Source of the DNA: an uncultured Desulfuromonadales bacterium
GTDB taxonomy: Bacteria; Desulfobacterota; Desulfuromonadia; Geobacterales; Pseudopelobacteraceae
Assembly (NCBI GenBank): GCA_903868145.1
Contig: CAIPTY010000058.1
Coordinates: forward strand, 62,001-126,000
Direction: 5' to 3'
Length of the DNA: 64,000 nt
This document shows, in pieces, positions 47,916 to 60,360 of the stretch (the stretch's first letter is position 1; every line of letters starts with the position of its first letter). The notes under the pieces were generated by a model. The model saw only the letters and a list, made by a program, of their open reading frames with translations. It ran no database searches and was not told the origin of the DNA. The translations under genes and the position numbers were made by a program.

Positions 47916-49257
47916 AGGGGAATGCCCTTCTGCGGTAGTTTAGGTTTGCCGACCAAAAACAAGCCACAGAAAGGATTCCCCATGAACAAGTTTAGCAGTA
48001 TCTTCGGCCAGATTCTACAGATCTTTGACAAGCGCGATTTCTTGCAAGCAGTACGTGACACCAGATCCGAGCATGCCGCCAAAGGTTTCACTTGCTGGGA
48101 CCAGTTCGTTGCAATGCTCTTTTGCCAACTCGGTCAGGCTCAATCTCTGCGTGAGATCTGCGGTGGCCTCGCTACCTGTCTTGGTAAGTTAAAACACCTT
48201 GGGATTGACGATGCCCCCAAGCGTTCCACGCTGTCATACGCCAATGAACACCGGCCATGGCAGTTGTATCAGTTGATGTTCTACCGGCTTCTGGAGAAGT
48301 GTCAAACAATGGCACGGTTTCAGAAGCGGAAGTTTCGGTTCAAGAACAAGCTGTTCAGCCTGGACGCATCAGTCATCGAACTCTGCCTGTCCCTGTTCGA
48401 TTGGGCCTCGTTCCGGCAGACCAAGGGTGCGGTAAAACTCCATCTGCTTTTGGACCATGACGGTTATCTTCCAACGTTTGCCACTGTGACTGAAGGCGAT
48501 GTCCATGAAGTCAAGGTTGCATGGGAACTCAAACTTCCCAAGGGCTCCCTACTGGCTGTTGACATGGGATATACCGACTATGCCCTGTTTGCAAAATGGA
48601 TTCTCGAAGGCATTTTCTTCGTCACCCGACAAAAAGGTAATGCGGCTTATCGTGTGGTTGAGGAGCGCAAGGTTCCCCAAAACCGGAATATTCTCAAAGA
48701 CCAGATTATCGAGTTTACGGGTTACTACGCCAAGAAGGACTGTCTTCATCTACTTCGCAGGATCGAAGTGTGGGACGAGGAATTCAATCGGATCCTGGTT
48801 CTTCTCACCAATCACCTGAAGTTCGGAGCGACCACTGTGTCCGCCATATACAAGGAGCGTTGGCAGATCGAGATATTCTTCAAGGCGATCAAGCAGAACC
48901 TGAAGATAAAGACCTTTGTCGGAACCAGCAAGAACGCGCTCCTCATCCAGATTTGGACAGCACTGACGGTGATCCTGCTCCTGAAGTATCTCAAGTTCCG
49001 GTCGAGTATGAGCTGGTCGTTGTCGAATCTGGTAGCAATGCTCAGATATAACCTCTTCACCTACCGGGATTTATGGCTATGGCTCGATAATCCGTTCGAG
49101 GTGCCAGCAATTGTACCGGGTGAACATCAGCTGGCACTGGCTTTCAGGTAATTGGACAGCATCTTGAAAATGGTAACCTGAATTTACAAAGAACGATTTA
49201 CGCGTCCAACATCTTGAAATATAAACACCGGAATCTCAGTTCCGGATTATCTTGGAC
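47889..49257 (+). mobile_element. IS4-type insertion sequence
   Basis: One transposase gene with short outer inverted repeats: GTCCAAGA at 47889-47896 and its complement TCTTGGAC at 49250-49257. A second TTGGACAGCATCTTGAAAAT copy at 49153-49172 makes the right end ambiguous. No clear target duplication was found. The element is about 1.37 kb, normal for the family. It sits in the 3' end of the GT32 gene. Confidence 0.72.
47982..49151 (+). CDS. IS4-family transposase
   Basis: A 389-residue DDE transposase that looks intact. It begins FSSIFGQILQIFDKRDF (the DUF4372-type N-terminal domain), followed by the DDE domain: first Asp in LFSLDASVIELCL, second in LLAVDMGYTDYALF, and the Glu in the YKERWQIEIFFKAIKQNLKI box (Y-2-R-3-E-6-K), placing it in the IS4 family. 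The start at 47982 has AAAGGA upstream; an in-frame ATG at 47922 is less likely. No frameshift or stop is seen, so the element could be active. Confidence 0.88.
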   Translation: MNKFSSIFGQILQIFDKRDFLQAVRDTRSEHAAKGFTCWDQFVAMLFCQLGQAQSLREICGGLATCLGKLKHLGIDDAPKRSTLSYANEHRPWQLYQLMFYRLLEKCQTMARFQKRKFRFKNKLFSLDASVIELCLSLFDWASFRQTKGAVKLHLLLDHDGYLPTFATVTEGDVHEVKVAWELKLPKGSLLAVDMGYTDYALFAKWILEGIFFVTRQKGNAAYRVVEERKVPQNRNILKDQIIEFTGYYAKKDCLHLLRRIEVWDEEFNRILVLLTNHLKFGATTVSAIYKERWQIEIFFKAIKQNLKIKTFVGTSKNALLIQIWTALTVILLLKYLKFRSSMSWSLSNLVAMLRYNLFTYRDLWLWLDNPFEVPAIVPGEHQLALAFR

Positions 49258-52345: not shown

Positions 52346-52726
52346 TTATTCCTCCGATGACCCTCTGTTGCGCCGCCCCTTTCGCGTGGCCTGTGGTGGC
52401 GGAGTTTGCTGTGGCGGCGGCGCACTGACGGCTGGTATGGACTTGGCCGGTTGTTCAGGCTTTGCTTGCGGAACTGCAGGCTTTGCTTCCGGAACCGCTG
52501 CCGTTGGCGGAAGGCTTGGGGAAGGAGTCTGGAAGTTCTGTTGCGGAGCGGCCGTATCCGTCTGCTCCGGATAGCGGGCCTTTACTCTGGCACGATAGCG
52601 TGCAGGAATCTCGTACTCCTTGTTTGTAAAATGGGTTATACCCGCGGAATCAGTCCAGGTGTAAACCATTCCGTATGCGGGTGCCGATACCATCATCAGC
52701 AGCAATAGCACATACTTTTTCATCAT
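52346..52726 (-). CDS. DUF4124-domain exported protein
   Basis: A 126-residue exported protein with a signal peptide (MKKYVLLLLMMVSAPAYG). The DUF4124 core is VYTWTDSAGITHFTNKEYEI, a small domain of unknown function in periplasmic proteins of proteobacteria. The remaining 75 residues are a Pro/Ala/Gln-rich tail. It converges on the methyltransferase gene. No ribosome site stands out; ATG at 52726 or 52723. Confidence 0.78.
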   Translation of the reverse strand: MMKKYVLLLLMMVSAPAYGMVYTWTDSAGITHFTNKEYEIPARYRARVKARYPEQTDTAAPQQNFQTPSPSLPPTAAVPEAKPAVPQAKPEQPAKSIPAVSAPPPQQTPPPQATRKGRRNRGSSEE

Positions 52727-52763: not shown

Positions 52764-52800
52764 GATTTAAAAAAGCCCCTGTAGACATCCAGGGGCTTTT
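52764..52800 (-). terminator. rho-independent terminator of the cytochrome operon
   Basis: An 11-bp stem (52771-52781 with 52790-52800, AAAAGCCCCTG) closes an 8-base loop. On the minus strand it ends in a run of T. It lies 28 bases after the stop of the six-haem cytochrome gene and ends the barrel-cytochrome operon. Confidence 0.85.
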
Positions 52801-52828: not shown

Positions 52829-53431
52829 TTAGAAGTGGCATTTTTTGCAGCTCGGACCGCTCAGAAAGACACCTTCTCCCTGTGTCCCGTGGCAGACTGC
52901 ATTGAAACATGAGGCGGTACCGTTGGCAACAACGTAGGCCGTGTGTGCCGATACTGCTGTCGGAATTGCCCAGTCAGTGGGATGAATTGAGCTTACACCC
53001 CCCAGATGACAACTGATGCACGACGGACCGGAACCCGCTACGCCTCTCAAATCAACCCCGTGACAATTGACATTGGCACAGGATGCACTGGTATTCTGCT
53101 TGACATAACTTGGATGCAACGCATATGCATAGCTTCCCCATGCCGTATTCCATACGAGGGGGTGAGGTGAAAGAGCATTTCCCAGATGGCACTGTGTGCA
53201 GGCCACCTTGGAGATGCCGCCGCTGAAGTCACTGCCGTGGCAGGTTGCACAGCTGGTCAGATTGGCTTTGGCCGCAGTCGTATGACCGGCAGGAAGCCAG
53301 GTGGCGGGGTGCGTGCCGGTAACCGGGTTAAGCACCGCCTGAGAGTTGCTGTCTCCACACCCCGAAAGCGCCATGAGAAGCAGGGAGAGCATAAAAAGGG
53401 AGATTAGAGATGAAGATCTTACCGGTGACAT
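52829..53431 (-). CDS. six-haem c-type cytochrome lipoprotein with CX4CH motifs
   Basis: A 200-residue lipoprotein (lipobox LSGC, Cys25) with four CX2CH sites (CATCH, CTQCH, CISCH, CKKCH) and two CX4CH sites (CANVNCH, CFNAVCH), each a possible covalent haem site. The pairing of CX4CH and CX2CH is a hallmark of a cytochrome family known mainly from Geobacter. It is likely on the outer membrane as part of the electron conduit with the barrel and the five-haem protein. The ATG at 53431 lies inside the last haem codons of the upstream gene (13-base overlap), with GAGAGG as ribosome site. Confidence 0.86.
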   Translation of the reverse strand: MSPVRSSSLISLFMLSLLLMALSGCGDSNSQAVLNPVTGTHPATWLPAGHTTAAKANLTSCATCHGSDFSGGISKVACTQCHLGNALSPHPLVWNTAWGSYAYALHPSYVKQNTSASCANVNCHGVDLRGVAGSGPSCISCHLGGVSSIHPTDWAIPTAVSAHTAYVVANGTASCFNAVCHGTQGEGVFLSGPSCKKCHF

Positions 53432-53856
53432 GATTTGCACCTCTCATTATTCTGCCGTCCGTGACAGGCGACACAGGACGCAGGGTTGACTCTGCCATCG
53501 ATCTTGTGCTGGCTCAGATAATCGCCCCGGTGCGGCAGATAGCGATCCGGAGACGTGGAATACTTGCTGCTCGGCTTGATCTCTTCCCGGTGTGCGTGAC
53601 AATCGGAGCAGAAAGACTCCTGATGGCAGGTGGCGCAGGCGTATCTCGATCCGGCATAAATTTTGTGTTTGAGAAGGAAATCCGGTGCCTTGTGGTTAAG
53701 AGCGCCCCAGGAGTTGGTATGACATTCGGTACAGTTGGGCATGGTCTTGACCGCCTCGGGGTGAATCCGGGGGACACTCGCGGTGTTCGCGCAGGCATAC
53801 AGGATACTTGCGAACAGCGGAACCATCAGAATCAGTAAACGTTTGCGATTTATCAC
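53419..53856 (-). CDS. five-haem c-type cytochrome lipoprotein
   Basis: A 145-residue lipoprotein (signal ending LYAC, Cys22) with five CX2CH haem sites: CTECH, CATCH, CSDCH, CVACH and CKSCH, the last ending one residue before the stop. Scattered His residues (NHKAPDF, LKHKIY, LPHRGDY, SQHKID) can serve as distal ligands. GTG start with GGGAGGAG upstream, overlapping the stop of the barrel gene (GTGA). It probably carries electrons through or beside the barrel protein. Confidence 0.88.
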   Translation of the reverse strand: MINRKRLLILMVPLFASILYACANTASVPRIHPEAVKTMPNCTECHTNSWGALNHKAPDFLLKHKIYAGSRYACATCHQESFCSDCHAHREEIKPSSKYSTSPDRYLPHRGDYLSQHKIDGRVNPASCVACHGRQNNERCKSCHR

Positions 53857-55196
53857 TTTTTATCTCCTCCCGCCGCGCCGAACTTCGTCTCGAACAGGTA
53901 CGTCAGTTTAAGCAGACCCTTTACTTCGTTGTTGAAAAACGGATTTTTGGAATACTCGACATTTGCGCCGATTTTCAGGCTCTCGTTTATTTCATACGAT
54001 GATGCGGTAAGTACAGTTATGGCATTGTGCTGGCTGTACATATTCCGGGAGTTGTCGTAGTAGAGATCGATCACATCCAGCGTCAGATCCAGCTTGCCCA
54101 TTTTTTTGGAGGCGAACAGCCGAAACTCGGAATATTGCAGCCTGTCGATGGAGCCGTCCATTCGGTGGACGGAAGCGCCGGCCATATACGCATCCGGCTT
54201 CGTATAGGTGAGCTTGCCGCCGAAATAATTGGCCGACTTGGCCACATCATATTTATAATGCTTGTAGTCGCCGACAAGCGTGAACTCGCTGTTTATGGAG
54301 TATGCAGCGCTTCCGCCGAAAGTCAGCACCTTCTCGTTGGGATCGATCCCGTTGGTCAGCGGATTGAAGACCAGTGCGCTGGTGGTGACCTTGTAGAAGA
54401 AGTCATGATAATTGATATTCGACATATCGACGTTGAGCTTCAGGCTGTCAAGGGGGGTGTAGGAGAGTGCGTAGGCGTGTTCCATCCAGCCGCCGGTAAT
54501 TGAATTGTAGGATGAACGCCCGGTCAGATCGATCTGTTTGATCGGGCGCACCCAGATGTCAAGCCCCTCTTCCTCACGGTAGCGGGCGCTGTCGGCGTAT
54601 GATTTCAGGGCGCTGACGCCGAGGGTGTAATACTTCTCGTTGCTCTGGGTCACCCGGCCGCCGAAAACCAGATTATCCGCCTTGATGTTCGGCTCAGTAA
54701 CGACCGGCGAACCCACATAAGCGGCGGCTGCGAAACCGGCCGCAAAATCGGAGCGGACGTATGCGCCGTCGAGCCGCTGCGCAGCAACCCCTTCGGTGAC
54801 AAACTGTCGCCCGGCGTTGATGACGAAATTGTTTTTTGCGCCCTGATAGCTCAGGTAGCCGTACTGCAGATCGCCATCCACGTTTCTGTCCCGGAAGGAT
54901 TTATCGCCAAAGTCAACCCGGCCCCAACTGCCGATGTGCAGCGATATGGCGTTACCGTCCTTGTCGGTGTTGACCAGTGACAGGCGCAGGTACTCCGTTG
55001 CCGGAAAGAGGTTTCTGCTGCCGTCGTAGTTGGTGCGGCCCATGCGCATGACGGTGTCAGACTGGCCGGAAATCACGGTTTCCGCCATGACAGGTGCAGC
55101 GGCGAATAATGCCGTGCAGACCATAGCAACTACAGCAGTTGTTCTCACGGTGCCTTGAAATTCAGGCCATGATGTACGAGATGGATCCGTCTTCAA
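53853..55196 (-). CDS. outer membrane beta-barrel protein of a porin-cytochrome-like complex
   Basis: A 447-residue exported protein with a signal peptide ending near APVMAETV and about 20 amphipathic strands of aromatic/polar alternation (for example YLRLSLVNTDKDGNAISLHI, YALSYTPLDSLKLNVDMSNI). It carries no haem motif. Position and size fit the barrel partner of Geobacter outer-membrane cytochrome conduits. The start is TTG at 55196, seven bases after a full AAGGAGG, and no ATG fits better. It is the first gene of the barrel/five-haem/six-haem operon. Confidence 0.8.
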   Translation of the reverse strand: MKTDPSRTSWPEFQGTVRTTAVVAMVCTALFAAAPVMAETVISGQSDTVMRMGRTNYDGSRNLFPATEYLRLSLVNTDKDGNAISLHIGSWGRVDFGDKSFRDRNVDGDLQYGYLSYQGAKNNFVINAGRQFVTEGVAAQRLDGAYVRSDFAAGFAAAAYVGSPVVTEPNIKADNLVFGGRVTQSNEKYYTLGVSALKSYADSARYREEEGLDIWVRPIKQIDLTGRSSYNSITGGWMEHAYALSYTPLDSLKLNVDMSNINYHDFFYKVTTSALVFNPLTNGIDPNEKVLTFGGSAAYSINSEFTLVGDYKHYKYDVAKSANYFGGKLTYTKPDAYMAGASVHRMDGSIDRLQYSEFRLFASKKMGKLDLTLDVIDLYYDNSRNMYSQHNAITVLTASSYEINESLKIGANVEYSKNPFFNNEVKGLLKLTYLFETKFGAAGGDKK

Positions 55197-55348
55197 AGCG
55201 CTACCTCCTTGCTGCCTGTCGATGTCTGGTTTTATTGGGTAGTTGGAACGTATTGCGCAGCAACATTAAATCAACGTGGATCTTATTGCAACAGTAAAAG
55301 CGCTATAACGGCAATGTCCGTGTGATAGTTTGAGGCGTTGTTAACCGG

Positions 55349-56059
55349 TTATTTTCCCTTTCGAACCAGCCATACAGCGCAGCTCCCGTCTGTGTTAACA
55401 TTGGCCTCTTTGCCGTCAACCATGCTTACCGTCCAGGCGTAACCCTTGGCTTCCTTATTGAGCTCGGAGGTCCAGTAGCACGTGGGCTTGACATTGATGA
55501 ACGCATCTTTGTTGAGTGCGTCAGCAGGGCTGGAACCACCGTACATGGCAACGGTTTTCAGTTCGAATCGTGTAGGTAATCTCCAGTCTGAAAATCCGCC
55601 ATCCGTGCTCTTTTTTGCATGCATCAGTGCTGCATCCCAGCTCATTTTACCTTCTTTACCGGCATCACGTATCCATATCTGCTCAAATGCGGGACAGTTA
55701 ACAAACAAACCGTCTTTTGACAAAGCAAAGAATACGACCAGTTCCTTCTCCAGTTTGAGCGTTTCTCCGCCGGACAGAGTCTCAATTTTCAGCGAGTGTG
55801 ACCTTGTTTTATCATCCAGATACGGGGTTACTTCATACTCGGTCTTGGCGGAAAGGTTACTTATTTTGAACACTCCATCCGCTCCCGTAGTTGCCTCTGC
55901 CTGATTACTCCCATGAGTCTGCTTGGCAACAACCTTAAGTCCGACAATGGGCTTCCCCTTGCCGTCCACCAGTTTACCCTCCAGATCCGATTTTTTTCCG
56001 CATCCCCACAGACATGTTAACAGCATGATTCCTGTCAGTAAAACTCTCGCCACTTTCAT
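55349..56059 (-). CDS. DUF1566 lipoprotein with an N-terminal carboxypeptidase-regulatory-like domain
   Basis: A 236-residue putative lipoprotein (LWGC, Cys20, a slightly unusual lipobox). Residues 28-100 are a carboxypeptidase regulatory-like beta-sandwich (GKLVDGKGKPIVGLKVVAKQ). The C-terminal part is a DUF1566/Lcl domain with WDAALMHAKKSTDGGFSDWR, LPTRFEL and CYWTSE. Such C-type-lectin-like domains occur in surface proteins. It lies between the decahaem cytochrome and the barrel operon, separated from the former by two terminators, so it has its own promoter. ATG at 56059 with GGAG 11 bases upstream. Confidence 0.76.
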   Translation of the reverse strand: MKVARVLLTGIMLLTCLWGCGKKSDLEGKLVDGKGKPIVGLKVVAKQTHGSNQAEATTGADGVFKISNLSAKTEYEVTPYLDDKTRSHSLKIETLSGGETLKLEKELVVFFALSKDGLFVNCPAFEQIWIRDAGKEGKMSWDAALMHAKKSTDGGFSDWRLPTRFELKTVAMYGGSSPADALNKDAFINVKPTCYWTSELNKEAKGYAWTVSMVDGKEANVNTDGSCAVWLVRKGK

Positions 56060-56110
56060 GTGTCTCACCACTCCTTTGTTGTTTGACTATAGCCGTAAGA
56101 AAATTGTACC

Positions 56111-56137
56111 AAAAAAAACCGCCTTGTTGAGAGGCGG
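56111..56137 (-). terminator. rho-independent terminator, second of a tandem pair
   Basis: A 6-bp stem (CCGCCT 56119-56124 with 56132-56137) closes a 7-base loop. On the minus strand it is followed by eight T. It lies 74 bases beyond the stop of the decahaem gene. Confidence 0.82.
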
Positions 56138-56147
56138 AAGGTTGTCT

Positions 56148-56175
56148 AAAAACGAGCGGGCCGTGAGGCCCGCTC
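56148..56175 (-). terminator. rho-independent terminator of the decahaem cytochrome gene
   Basis: A 9-bp GC-rich stem (56154-56162 with 56167-56175) has a GTGA loop and five T following on the minus strand. It is the first of two tandem terminators behind this gene. Confidence 0.85.
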
Positions 56176-56210
56176 TATGTTACTGCCGATACTACTGTTT
56201 ACAATTCAGA

Positions 56211-58967
56211 CTAAATGCCACCATTTTGCTTGAAGTGATTCAGCACTCCAGTTTTGGATACATGGCAGCCACTGCAGGTATTCTGTGAAATACTTGTTTT
56301 CCATGCGATACCGGTTCCTGATGTGCCGGTATGGCAGCCTATGCAACGTGGTGCACCCGCTACAGTCTGGACTCTGCCAGTGGAGTAGACTGAGAATGTG
56401 GGTGTGGTTGTACCAGGTGCGACAAACGATGGCGTACCCTGCGGGTAGGTTACTTCACCCCAGTTCAGTCCCAGCGCGTCGCCAGTCGGAGAAGCGGAGT
56501 GAATCGCGTGTACGCGGTTGTTAATCGGATTAGCATGGTTGCCGGACTTGTCATGGCATGTATTGCATGAATCCGTATCAAACGGTACCGAGTGACGCGC
56601 GTCGTGTGCTCCAAGTGTTCCCGTACCATGGCAATCAACACAGGTAGCGCCGGCAATTTTCTGCTCAACGGTAGCTGTACCGATCTGGATGAGGGCCTGA
56701 GCGGTCGAGTCAATTTTGTAGTTCGTATCAGAAACATACCCATAATTCTGTGCAATAAAACGAACTACGTATGTACCAGGTGTCGCATTTGCCGGAATCG
56801 CATTCAGCTTGTAACTGAAACCGGATGTTGTGGTTTTGATATTGGCATCCGTAGCATCAGGGAACAGGCTCTGAGACTGACCTGGAAGATTTGTAGTCGG
56901 GCTCAGCGTGATCGCTGCTTTGGTCAACACAGGAATTGCGTTGGCACGCGGACCGGCTACGGCAAGGGTTGCCTTGGAAAGAACGCCGGCGACGGTTGTT
57001 CCGGCAGCATGTTTCGTTGTGGTGTAGATTGTTGATGGGACAGCACTGCCATCGGCATTTTTCAGGGTTACCGTGACGGTTGGTGTTTCACCGGCTTTGT
57101 AGTACGTTCCACTTGCCGGAGCAGAGATGGTCATTGTAGCGATGTATTCCGGTACATTTTTGGCTGCGGTGGCAACAGTATGCACAGACGTGACGTTTGC
57201 CGCAGTATGGCAAACAACGCAACCCGAACCGGGGATACCAACGGTGTGAGAGTTCGGTGCAGGCGCGCCCTTGACGTTGCCCGTGTGGCAGCCGAGACAT
57301 GCTTCAGGGGTAGCATTATTCTTCCAGTTGGCAAGCTTATCGCCAGTGCCAAGAGTTACAGCGTTAGGATTGGAATGACATGTTGTGCAGTTCGTGAGAG
57401 GCTGCGGATAGGTAATTTCAGACATATCATACGGCTTGCTCTGGCCCGAGTGAATCTGATGGATAAATGAGGTCAGAGGGTATGCGCTTCCGCCACCGGT
57501 ATATAACTGTGAGTGACAGAACACACAGGCAAGCGTGTCTTTGCGGCTGCTGGCATGAGCAGCGCCAGCCATCGGATAGCCGTGGCATTTCTGGCAGGCG
57601 CCGATTGTAACGATCTGATTCTGCGGTGCGTCTTTCAGTACTGCAGCGTTGGCACCACCTGCGGCGCCCCAGGTGAAATCAGTAATGGAGTTACCTGCAC
57701 CGACTGTAACCGCATCTGAACCGGCAGGCATGCCGGCGACGGTCGGGCTGACCTGCAGCCACAGACGCTGTGTGCTGGTTGCACGGGTACCAAAATCGGC
57801 AGCCGAAAAGGCGGTGGAAGCTGCACCGGCGTTGGCTGCTACGGCTACTTTAGACGGGAAGGTTAATTTGTAAACGCCGGTCGCATTAACAGGCAGAACC
57901 GGGGTTCCCTGGAAAACCTCAACATTATTCTGGTACAAGTGTGCGGTACCCAGTGCTCCTGCGCTGTTACCTTTGGCCTGTCCCCACATTTCCAACAGGT
58001 CAGTTGCAAGTGTCTGGCCCGCGAGAACCAGGCCGGTATTGGTGGAATTTCCTGCCCGTGCAATTACGGTCCCTTTAGGAACAAGGGTTCCCAAATAGGC
58101 TGTAACTTCAGACGGCTGAAGGGTGGTCCAGGCAGCAGTGCCATTTTTTACCGTGAATGTAATAACCGGATAATCAGTCGCATCTGTCGCTACTGTAACA
58201 CCCGATATTGCAAGGTTGGACTCCAGATATCTCGGTTTCAGCGTACGTGTGCCCGATGCTGCATCATATTGATACTGGTGCATGCCAACCTGGTCTGTAA
58301 CGTCATTTGCGCTGTGACAGACAAGGCAGGATTCCTGACTCACGGTAACAGCAGTTGCAGTCACCAGAGCGAGTCCGGAAGTGGTGTACTTCAGAACGGC
58401 GCCGCCGCTTGCAATTACAGCACTGCTTGCATCAGCAAAGGTCTTGGCGGCAGGAATCGGCGCGGTCACCGAAGCACCCAACAGTGTCAGGGCAGCTTTG
58501 GCAGCGGCATCGGATGTCCGGTTGATATTGATCAACACCAGGTTGCCGTTGGTCAGCACTGCCGGGGGGTTGTTAATATCGATCGGGGTGAGAGTGTAGA
58601 GAATAATCCCGGTGGTGAGCGTAGCCTTGAACAGGATTACGGATTGTTTTGCCGGCAGTGTAAAGGACAGGCCGGAGTAGGTTCCGTCTGCCTGAATATC
58701 GGCAGTACCCAGTGCAGCACTACCAGCTTTGGCATATGCATCGAATGCCTCAACCTTGCCCAGGGTCGCAGCGGCCCTTTGAGCAACAGGAACCTCTGCT
58801 GCTGCTTTGGGAGCAGGTGCAACGGCATCAAGTACCGTACCGGAGACCGTAGCCTTCATGCTTGTGGTATCAATGGCAGTCGCACCGCCACCACCACTGC
58901 AACCCGCAAGCGGAAGCATCGCGAGTACAACCAGTGCAAAAAAATAAGACAGATTCCATTTCTTCAT
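56211..58967 (-). CDS. OmcA/MtrC-family decahaem c-type cytochrome lipoprotein
   Basis: A 918-residue outer-surface cytochrome. The lipobox PLAGC (Cys23) is followed by a long non-haem region up to the first site. Ten CX2CH sites were counted: CLVCH, CQKCH, CVFCH, CTTCH, CLGCH, CVVCH, CVDCH, CNTCH, CIGCH and CSGCH. Their arrangement, with a beta-sandwich domain between the sixth and seventh sites, resembles the OmcA/MtrC group that carries electrons to extracellular acceptors. GGAGG nine bases before the ATG at 58967 chooses it over 58982. It is transcribed alone, ended by two terminators. The acceptor (metal oxide, electrode, partner cell) is unknown. Confidence 0.9.
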   Translation of the reverse strand: MKKWNLSYFFALVVLAMLPLAGCSGGGGATAIDTTSMKATVSGTVLDAVAPAPKAAAEVPVAQRAAATLGKVEAFDAYAKAGSAALGTADIQADGTYSGLSFTLPAKQSVILFKATLTTGIILYTLTPIDINNPPAVLTNGNLVLININRTSDAAAKAALTLLGASVTAPIPAAKTFADASSAVIASGGAVLKYTTSGLALVTATAVTVSQESCLVCHSANDVTDQVGMHQYQYDAASGTRTLKPRYLESNLAISGVTVATDATDYPVITFTVKNGTAAWTTLQPSEVTAYLGTLVPKGTVIARAGNSTNTGLVLAGQTLATDLLEMWGQAKGNSAGALGTAHLYQNNVEVFQGTPVLPVNATGVYKLTFPSKVAVAANAGAASTAFSAADFGTRATSTQRLWLQVSPTVAGMPAGSDAVTVGAGNSITDFTWGAAGGANAAVLKDAPQNQIVTIGACQKCHGYPMAGAAHASSRKDTLACVFCHSQLYTGGGSAYPLTSFIHQIHSGQSKPYDMSEITYPQPLTNCTTCHSNPNAVTLGTGDKLANWKNNATPEACLGCHTGNVKGAPAPNSHTVGIPGSGCVVCHTAANVTSVHTVATAAKNVPEYIATMTISAPASGTYYKAGETPTVTVTLKNADGSAVPSTIYTTTKHAAGTTVAGVLSKATLAVAGPRANAIPVLTKAAITLSPTTNLPGQSQSLFPDATDANIKTTTSGFSYKLNAIPANATPGTYVVRFIAQNYGYVSDTNYKIDSTAQALIQIGTATVEQKIAGATCVDCHGTGTLGAHDARHSVPFDTDSCNTCHDKSGNHANPINNRVHAIHSASPTGDALGLNWGEVTYPQGTPSFVAPGTTTPTFSVYSTGRVQTVAGAPRCIGCHTGTSGTGIAWKTSISQNTCSGCHVSKTGVLNHFKQNGGI

Positions 58968-58982
58968 ACATTTTCCTCCCAT

Positions 58983-59508: not shown

Positions 59509-59715
59509 CTACGCCGCCAATCGCACCGTTGCGGTAAACTCATCCCACGGCACGCAGTATTTACCCGCCTCTGTCTTTTCCACCAGACCGGCAGTCTCCA
59601 GTGTTTTTACATCATGGAATACATTCTTGTAGTGGCGGTGGAGATGTTTGGCAAGGGCGTTAATGCTGGTGCTGCCGACCTTGTGAAGTTCCTGCCCATT
59701 AGATACCTCTCCCAC
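59509..59715 (-). CDS. short winged-HTH DNA-binding protein
   Basis: A 68-residue protein whose core SINALAKHLHRHYKNVFHDV, then KTLETAGLVEK, is a winged helix like that of small HVO_A0114-type or antitoxin-like regulators. Related proteins usually have 30-50 more residues at the N-terminus, so this one may be shortened; an in-frame stop lies only four codons before the GTG start. GAGAGG precedes the GTG. No toxin partner is adjacent. It lies upstream of the decahaem cytochrome gene on the same strand and could regulate it, which is speculative. Confidence 0.66.
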   Translation of the reverse strand: MGEVSNGQELHKVGSTSINALAKHLHRHYKNVFHDVKTLETAGLVEKTEAGKYCVPWDEFTATVRLAA

Positions 59716-60360
59716 ATTTTCCTCTCAATCATAGATATGGCTTTTTATGCCACAGCCGAGTTTTATTGTCAACGATGGCTCCTGCAAAAGTAAAAAAGTC
59801 CCCTCCCCCTTGGCGCATGAGCGCTAACTTAGAGCTTTTCGTCCCTTCCCCTTCAAGGGGAAGGTTAGGATGGGGATGGGATTGTTTTTGGTAACTTGCC
59901 GAAATCATGGAGTTTACCCCAGCCCCTCCCCGACCCTCCCCTTGAAAGGGAGGGGGAAAATCAAGGGCATTTCTGCTTATAGTTAGCGCATATACCCGTC
60001 AAGGGAGGGGAGGCTTGACGTAAGAGCAAAAACAGACACAAAAACCTGCCGTATCCCCTCACCCGGCCTTCGGCCACCCTCTCCCGGTGGGAGAGGGGAT
60101 AAGATTTCCCTTCTCCCGCCGGGAGAAGGTGGCCGACAGGGCGGATGAGGGGTGACTTTGTGGGTGTTGCAATACCCTGCATATCATAGGCCGGGGCTCC
60201 CGTTTGTCGAGTGCACAGACACACGGGCGGAATCAGCCTGCCTGACGGCGGAAGTCGATCTTTGTACCTGACGAACCCCCGCCTCAAATCGCATTGTCAG
60301 AATTATTCTTATGTGATACCGTGCGCTTCGCTAACTTCACACATTGAGGGAATTTCTGAC
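59716..60360. repeat. intergenic repeat-rich region before hisC
   Basis: No gene is seen. The stretch 59801-60152 is full of C/T- and G/A-rich inverted repeats of the kind scattered through many proteobacterial genomes. One pair of about 31 bases (60055-60085 with 60121-60152) is imperfectly inverted, each arm also holding its own small hairpin. A second pair, GCGCTAAC near 59822 and GTTAGCGC near 59981, is inverted around about 150 bases. It may work as a boundary or transcription terminator ahead of hisC. Confidence 0.6.

Follow-up and report, generated by a model that had tools for sequence, protein, structure and literature searches.

Could a short row of genes in the genome of an uncultured Desulfuromonadales bacterium provide a complete route for electrons across the outer membrane? 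The genes lie in the window, the stretch of 64,000 nucleotides of contig CAIPTY010000058.1 that was analysed and on which all coordinates are given. They encode a decahaem cytochrome, a haem-free barrel, a pentahaem cytochrome and a six-haem cytochrome, all on the minus strand. Sequence comparisons suggest, with a probability that we put at about 0.77, that the locus encodes a porin–cytochrome (Pcc) conduit for electrons, which is of the 5-haem/6-haem type and sister to the ExtEFG conduit, with an OmcA/MtrC-type decahaem protein as its surface terminal. The main parts are as follows.

53853 to 55196, minus strand: haem-free barrel protein of 447 residues, with a TTG start after AAGGAGG
53419 to 53856, minus strand: pentahaem lipoprotein, with five CXXCH motifs and the lipobox LYAC (by reading)
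52829 to 53440, minus strand: six-haem lipoprotein of 203 residues, with four CXXCH and two CX4CH motifs and the lipobox LSGC (by reading)
56211 to 58982, minus strand: decahaem lipoprotein of the OmcA/MtrC type, with ten CXXCH motifs, a likely ATG start at 58967 after GGAGG and the lipobox LAGC (by reading)
58353 to 58982, minus strand: N-terminal domain of the decahaem protein, about residues 1–206, common to decahaems beside clade-A barrels (clade A is defined below)

The original prediction, an earlier reading of the letters, had named four genes on one strand with 21 haem motifs and a haem-free barrel, and all of these are present where it placed them. The motifs comprise 19 CXXCH and two CX4CH (CANVNCH and CFNAVCH, both in the six-haem protein), ten falling in the decahaem, five in the pentahaem and six in the six-haem protein. 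These are the only three open reading frames (ORFs) of the window with at least two CXXCH motifs, and the clustering is far above chance because the remaining called ORFs contain none in 17,718 residues. The barrel and pentahaem genes overlap by 4 nucleotides and the pentahaem and six-haem genes by 22, which looks as in an operon. A Pcc locus is recognised by a porin-like barrel gene that adjoins a multihaem cytochrome resembling OmaB or ExtF, and the window shows this both in the overlapping genes and in profile homology with controls.

To which family does the barrel belong? Neither Pfam nor NCBIfam had a model that matched it. Sequence searches of the Protein Data Bank (PDB), whether with the barrel itself or with profiles of the barrel, the pentahaem and the OmaB-type proteins, brought nothing meaningful. 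Relatives were searched in 147 genomes (its own included) and in 395 genomes spread over the phylum; fetched loci are numbered L and genomes G. At E 1e-3, barrel relatives occurred in 106 of the 147 genomes, the own genome included; the places used below are those among the matches listed. Clade A, defined by an identity of at least 43%, had 66 barrel rows in 48 of the 147 genomes, again counting its own. A quick tree of 77 barrels placed 51 rows, the window barrel among them, in clade A and 21 in clade B, and both clades had a Shimodaira–Hasegawa-like approximate likelihood-ratio (SH-aLRT) value of 99; L090 and L094 fell outside both, and three OmbB-type rows formed the outgroup on a long branch. 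In the phylum-wide set, 36 genomes matched the barrel at E 1e-10, and outside its own order only G517 (49%) and G384 (40%) reached at least 40% identity. The three other genomes of the same genus had barrel rows at 30–35% identity only, among the matches listed.

The window barrel was 27–33% identical to 11 aligned clade-B barrels. When a profile of 36 barrels from both clades was compared by hhalign with three OmbB-type barrels, it aligned at E 1.7e-17 over 367 columns, compared with 0.18 for the reversed control. Judged by these profiles and the tree, the barrel is a remote homologue of the OmbB-type barrels and sister to ExtE. An unrelated function of the barrel, which the original prediction had raised as an objection to itself, is therefore not borne out.

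Clade B is, by synteny, ExtEFG. In L074, a clade-B barrel, a pentahaem protein and a 13-haem protein are followed by a molybdopterin oxidoreductase (PF00174) and a 2Fe-2S thioredoxin-like protein (PF01257), which matches the published context, where extEFG is followed by a YedY family protein and then a Hox-type hydrogenase (PMC6148476). Upstream of its clade-B genes, L074 carries a further barrel, an octahaem protein and a 9-haem lipoprotein; a frame at L074:1129-1524, first taken for an ExtC-like gene, turned out to be part of this octahaem protein. We named this barrel and octahaem protein OmbB- and OmaB-type because omcBC lies, by its locus tags, near extEFG in Geobacter sulfurreducens. 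The other reason was that the Pcc is given as a porin, an 8-haem and a 12-haem protein (PMC4245776).

Similarly, the pentahaem protein was 46–50% identical to four aligned clade-B pentahaems, used as stand-ins for ExtF, and its profile matched four OmaB-type proteins at E 2.9e-21 over 136 columns spanning haems 1–5 of the octahaem protein. With the haem cysteines and histidines masked, the match to the OmaB-type proteins stood at E 5.6e-8 over 85 columns (reversed control, 0.16). As a caution, the pentahaem also matched the decahaems, at E 2.2e-8 unmasked and 6.7e-5 masked, the latter match being confined to the signal-peptide region. On these profiles, the pentahaem is homologous to the ExtF-type pentahaems and to haems 1–5 of the OmaB-type octahaem protein. 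The comparisons side with PMC4245776, in which such porins and 5- to 14-haem cytochromes are placed in common trees, over PMC6148476, according to which the Ext and OmcB components share no homology. A shared ancestry of ExtE/ExtF and OmbB/OmaB is suggested, and with it that the pentahaem would play the part of OmaB. ExtF is predicted to be an outer-membrane lipoprotein (PMC6148476); the two views can be reconciled because a lipoprotein may sit on the inner leaflet, a topology that is itself conjectural. The six-haem protein showed partial similarity to ExtG-like cytochromes.

How does the locus compare with the named conduits? ExtEFG (GSU2726-2724 in G. sulfurreducens) has the same order of a barrel, a pentahaem lipoprotein and a further cytochrome, its barrel belongs to the sister clade, and GSU_2724 carries atypical haem motifs, as the six-haem protein does. 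Membership of an Ext family is set at 40% identity or more (PMC6148476); the window barrel lies below this value with respect to the clade-B barrels, whereas the pentahaem lies above it with respect to its clade-B stand-ins. Moreover, ExtG has about 12 haems compared with the six motifs of the window's last cytochrome, and no YedY or Hox neighbours were recognised beside the window cluster. A decahaem lipoprotein upstream of extE is recorded in some genomes (PMC6148476, Fig. 9 legend). With OmbB-OmaB-OmcB, the locus shares the remote homology of the barrel, and of the pentahaem with OmaB-type haems 1–5 (types by layout), but that system has an octahaem protein in place of the pentahaem lipoprotein, and no OmcB-type gene was recognised in the window cluster. 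The MtrCAB system of Shewanella shares the MtrC/OmcA family of surface cytochromes (PF22113), but the cluster contains no MtrA-like gene, and the window barrel had no match to TIGR03509 (MtrB/PioB) at E 0.1; a TIGR03509 search of the whole genome gave no match, and no control match either. The MtrCAB described in Desulfobacterota is a different conduit (PMC12133095). By its description in PMC6148476, ExtABCD likewise combines a barrel, a 5-haem lipoprotein and a second lipoprotein cytochrome, but ExtA is a dodecahaem protein, of which the window has none, and the last cytochrome has 12 haems rather than six. Of the two systems against which the original prediction proposed to compare the locus, OmbB thus proved a remote relative; among the named systems, ExtEFG rather than ExtABCD comes closest.

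The closest published counterpart comes from Geobacter sp. M18, in which Shi et al. 2014 (PMC4245776) described clusters, present in duplicate, in which a porin stands with a 5-haem cytochrome and with an approximately 6-haem cytochrome that bears CX3-4CH motifs. These clusters (GM18_3461-3463 and GM18_3467-3469) resemble the window in their porin, 5-haem and approximately 6-haem genes and in an associated 10-haem gene. On the other hand, one motif of GM18_3461 is typical and five are atypical, compared with four and two in the window's six-haem protein, and the window has a single copy, a decahaem gene upstream rather than downstream, and two added genes, for an Lcl_C and a DUF4124 protein. 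This kind of conduit was therefore already listed in 2014 and is no new class. GM18_3465, numbered between the duplicated clusters, was interpreted as a porin-like 10-haem protein (PMC4245776), and a literature search for this locus tag returned only the 2014 paper. L052 and L053 have a tandem layout like that of M18, and the decahaem that separates the barrels of L052 (G106), a frame of 1,049 residues, matched PF22113 at E 6.0e-27 (G106:C10:26414-27088). From this shared layout and the window conduit, we infer that GM18_3465 may be a surface cytochrome of the OmcA/MtrC type.

A lack of co-occurrence in other genomes was one of the two findings that, according to the original prediction, would refute it. 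The genes proved to be linked in the 47 fetched clade-A barrels (window excluded), many of which come from one genus, so that the counts are not independent. A pentahaem gene lay 3' of the barrel in 44 of the 44 loci with at least 500 nucleotides downstream, and a six-haem or ExtG-like protein followed in 42 of the 43 with at least 1,200 (exception, L017). A large cytochrome, that is, one with at least 8 haems and at least 450 residues on the same strand within 6 kb of the barrel, was present in 24 of the 28 loci with enough flank. Among 23 barrels outside clade A (L090 and L094 included), the pentahaem was next in all 23, and a large cytochrome was found in 8 of 18, in four cases a 13–15-haem protein. 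The order of barrel, pentahaem and six-haem type is thus nearly invariant in the fetched relatives. In two clade-A loci, proteins with fn3 and RGI_lyase-like domains (L047:3531-5675 and L055:4480-6060) lie between the six-haem gene and a downstream decahaem gene, and some other clade-A loci have haem-free genes of similar size at that position; these genes are absent from the window.

Is a decahaem protein of this type usual for such conduits? We examined 37 large cytochromes (the window's plus 36 of the 38 listed, with two 5-haem frames dropped and two ExtG-like ones set aside), one of which, L067:2350-4515, is closer to a clade-B barrel. At E 1e-3, PF22113 matched 34 of the 37 and TIGR03507 matched 24. 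The locus is therefore an ordinary but complete-looking member of its clade, in which an OmcA/MtrC-type terminal is usual. The original prediction had called it a variant conduit with an OmcA/MtrC-type surface cytochrome; the conduit and the cytochrome type stand, and the supposition that the combination is unusual for Geobacter does not, given these counts and the clusters of Shi et al. 2014. OmcA/MtrC-type cytochromes also seem to accompany conduits of the OmbB type: in L105:5706-11757, an OmbB-type barrel, an OmaB-type 9-haem protein, a ten-haem protein (PF22113 at G118:C107:8291-9958) and a further multihaem cytochrome stand in a row.

The window's decahaem protein itself matched PF22113 (MtrC/MtrF-like domain II/IV) at 94.3 bits (cut-off 30), and its sole PDB sequence match was an MtrC (E 4.5e-8). 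With NCBIfam TIGR03507, it scored 178.3 bits, below the cut-off of 209.3, so that its designation as OmcA/MtrC-type is upheld by the first model and not by the second. The OmcA/MtrC family has its haems arranged 5+5 in domains II and IV. The ten haems of the window protein depart from this and are arranged 1+5+4, as they are in its relatives in G115 and G062.

The two ends of the decahaem protein have different relatives. Its N-terminal residues (from about 6–16 to 203–208) matched the N-termini of other proteins at 34–44% identity. Among the 25 N-domain matches at E 1e-10 or better, its own included, 19 lay within 10 kb of a clade-A barrel (13 of these from one genus), one, in G024, stood 3.4 kb away from a barrel with 33% identity, and the remaining five had no barrel on their contig among the matches listed. 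Nine weaker matches (E 1e-10 to 1e-3) were excluded; only one of these, G074:C298, has a listed clade-A barrel on its contig. The remainder of the protein, on the other hand, shared 54% identity with the decahaems found in G062 (374/690) and G115 (352/649), with all ten haems aligned. These two proteins have collagen-like N-termini in place of the window's N-domain, and an Lcl_C gene lies directly 3' of both, as in the window. In G115 (L067), the pair of decahaem and Lcl_C genes is convergent with a clade-B conduit. In G062 (L097), where the contig ends, the pair is convergent with an ExtG-like gene (43% to its L074 counterpart) that comes after the last part of a pentahaem gene. G068 (L098) has a more distant decahaem (195/640), after which come genes for an ExtG-like protein (50% to its L103 counterpart), for Lcl_C and DUF4124 proteins and for a trihaem cytochrome; this row, on a 7.4-kb contig, has neither barrel nor pentahaem. 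In G118 (L103), an Lcl_C gene stands immediately upstream of a clade-B barrel. Homologues of the DUF4124 protein (42–50%) occur in five other fetched loci: in L097 and L098 they adjoin the Lcl_C gene, in L060 and L093 a barrel is less than 1 kb away, and in L055 the homologue comes after the decahaem.

The decahaem thus looks like a hybrid of a clade-A-associated N-domain and an Lcl_C-associated body. The exchange could also have run the other way, the window form being the ancestor and the collagen-like N-termini seen in G062 and G115 its replacements. The first approximately 206 residues might be a conduit-specific docking domain for clade A, set on a 1+5+4 body otherwise found beside ExtEFG-type conduits with Lcl_C; surface cytochromes would then be exchangeable caps, with the N-domain choosing the conduit, and the re-capped conduit would be the genome's only one of its superfamily. 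This proposal is tentative and, in our estimation, somewhat doubtful. Outer-surface lipoproteins are described as the part typically replaced (PMC6148476, section 19). The locus offers a testable candidate for the way in which surface cytochromes and barrel conduits are paired in Geobacter-like bacteria, and the hybrid decahaem and its Lcl_C/DUF4124 companions are the parts worth following.

Could the decahaem instead be a newcomer to the locus? The genes and signals around it, among them an Lcl_C lipoprotein and a DUF4124 protein missing from the original prediction, are as follows.

56119 to 56175, minus strand: two terminator-like hairpins with T tails (56175–56154 and 56137–56119), directly 3' of the decahaem gene (pattern match only)
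55349 to 56071, minus strand: small lipoprotein of 240 residues with CarboxypepD_reg and Lcl_C domains and no haem motif
52771 to 52800, strand not assigned: terminator-like hairpin 3' of the six-haem gene, symmetrical and scored on the plus strand (pattern match)
52346 to 52726, minus strand: DUF4124 protein (Pfam) with a signal peptide and, on reading, no haem motif

The order of transcription is decahaem, Lcl_C lipoprotein, barrel, pentahaem, six-haem and DUF4124 protein. The barrel, pentahaem and six-haem genes might form a self-sufficient operon, with the decahaem–Lcl_C pair an independent surface module, a reductase or adhesin, that landed alongside. This would agree with the similar pairs that adjoin ExtEFG-type genes in G115 and G062, with the terminator-like hairpins that set the decahaem apart, and with the report that MtrAB pairs can work without a surface cytochrome (PMC4245776). 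We consider it unlikely, in view of the N-domain, which is of the sort found next to clade-A barrels in 19 of the 25 strong matches, and of the large, mostly OmcA/MtrC-type cytochromes beside most clade-A barrels. A separate transcript for the decahaem is nevertheless plausible because of the two hairpins 3' of its gene.

For the preferred conduit, sister to ExtEFG, we propose that periplasmic PpcA-like trihaem cytochromes would pass electrons to the pentahaem lipoprotein, which would act as a shortened OmaB-like wire at or in the barrel. The six-haem lipoprotein would lengthen the haem chain at one face of the membrane, and the surface decahaem lipoprotein would hand electrons to minerals of Fe(III) or Mn(IV), to electrodes, to humics or to partner cells. 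That the proteins form a complex, how they are oriented, which way electrons flow and to which acceptor, and that the decahaem is regulated separately are all inferred. In the assembly (3.8 Mb, 97% complete), PpcA-like trihaems gave three matches at 56–68% identity and one weak match. The OmaB-type profile found only the window pentahaem (E 8.4e-17) and the OmbB-type profile only the window barrel (E 7.6e-8); these searches cover the OmbB/OmaB superfamily. PF22113 gave two matches in the window decahaem and a weak one on contig C21, where a second group of multihaem genes (L080, G000:C21:1-20000) has a PpcA-like gene nearby; tblastn with the window barrel found nothing in L080.

Several points weigh against this conduit. 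The pentahaem is short for a wire, and the crossing may need the six-haem protein as well; 5+6 haems have been argued to suffice (PMC4245776). Four of the 28 clade-A loci have no large cytochrome, namely L048, L111, and L040 and L066, whose 5-haem frames are apparently split or cut. The partnership of decahaem and barrel is made less certain by the 240-residue Lcl_C gene, the gaps of 139 nucleotides (decahaem to Lcl_C) and 152 nucleotides (Lcl_C to barrel) and the terminators between them. Furthermore, the OmbB- and OmaB-type names were assigned from gene layout and haem number, not from named sequences. An AlphaFold2 model of the barrel from a two-row alignment had a predicted local distance difference test (pLDDT) score of 27 and was discarded, and the count of amphipathic strands in the barrel, 16 strong segments compared with 7.9 in shuffles (23 compared with 17.8 at a laxer threshold), is a heuristic only. 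Finally, experimental data on a clade-A member were not found in the literature searched, and the accessible parts of PMC11389400, PMC11475568, PMC11434368 and PMC12307469 held nothing on clade-A conduits.

The same genes might instead serve an electron acceptor or donor of a soluble or special kind (selenite, tellurite, arsenate, direct interspecies electron transfer or electron uptake) rather than Fe(III) or electrode respiration. The acceptor cannot be read from sequence. G. sulfurreducens uses different conduits for different acceptors, with ExtI linked to selenite and tellurite (PMC6148476). We regard this reading as quite unlikely. Decahaems of the OmcA/MtrC type are best known for reducing minerals or electrodes. 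A role of this sort has been proposed for those of Desulfobacterota (PMC12133095), and no oxyanion genes were recognised in reading the ORF lists of the window, without a family search aimed at them. That the barrel is an ordinary substrate porin with unrelated cytochromes for neighbours is hardly credible: it would fit the lack of Pfam, NCBIfam and meaningful PDB sequence matches, but is contradicted by the pentahaem adjacency conserved in every clade-A and other locus counted and by the profile homology to OmbB-type barrels.

The locus is flanked by the DUF4124 gene and surface-polysaccharide genes on one side and by hisC/hisB-like genes on the other (names except DUF4124 by reading). Terminator-like sites numbered 15 in the stretch compared with 8.5 expected from shuffles, and promoter-like sites were at chance level (8 found, 6.1 expected), as was the pattern GGAGGN6ATG, which was left unused. 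An Rfam scan of the stretch gave nothing over a gathering score. Its lowest E-values came from microRNA models on palindromes near 60 kb, with a weak small-RNA model (E 0.26) inside the decahaem gene. The palindromes are long and imperfect (60044–60165 and 59844–59953), lie between the decahaem and hisC-like genes and resemble miniature inverted-repeat transposable elements or repetitive extragenic palindromes; the microRNA matches on them are apparently owed to hairpin shape alone. Upstream of the decahaem gene, a remnant at 59510–59720 (minus strand) reads like the end of a helix-turn-helix regulator, with no complete ORF. On the other side, an IS4-like transposase ORF (by reading) lies at 47922–49151 within the surface-polysaccharide region, about 3.2 kb from the DUF4124 gene.

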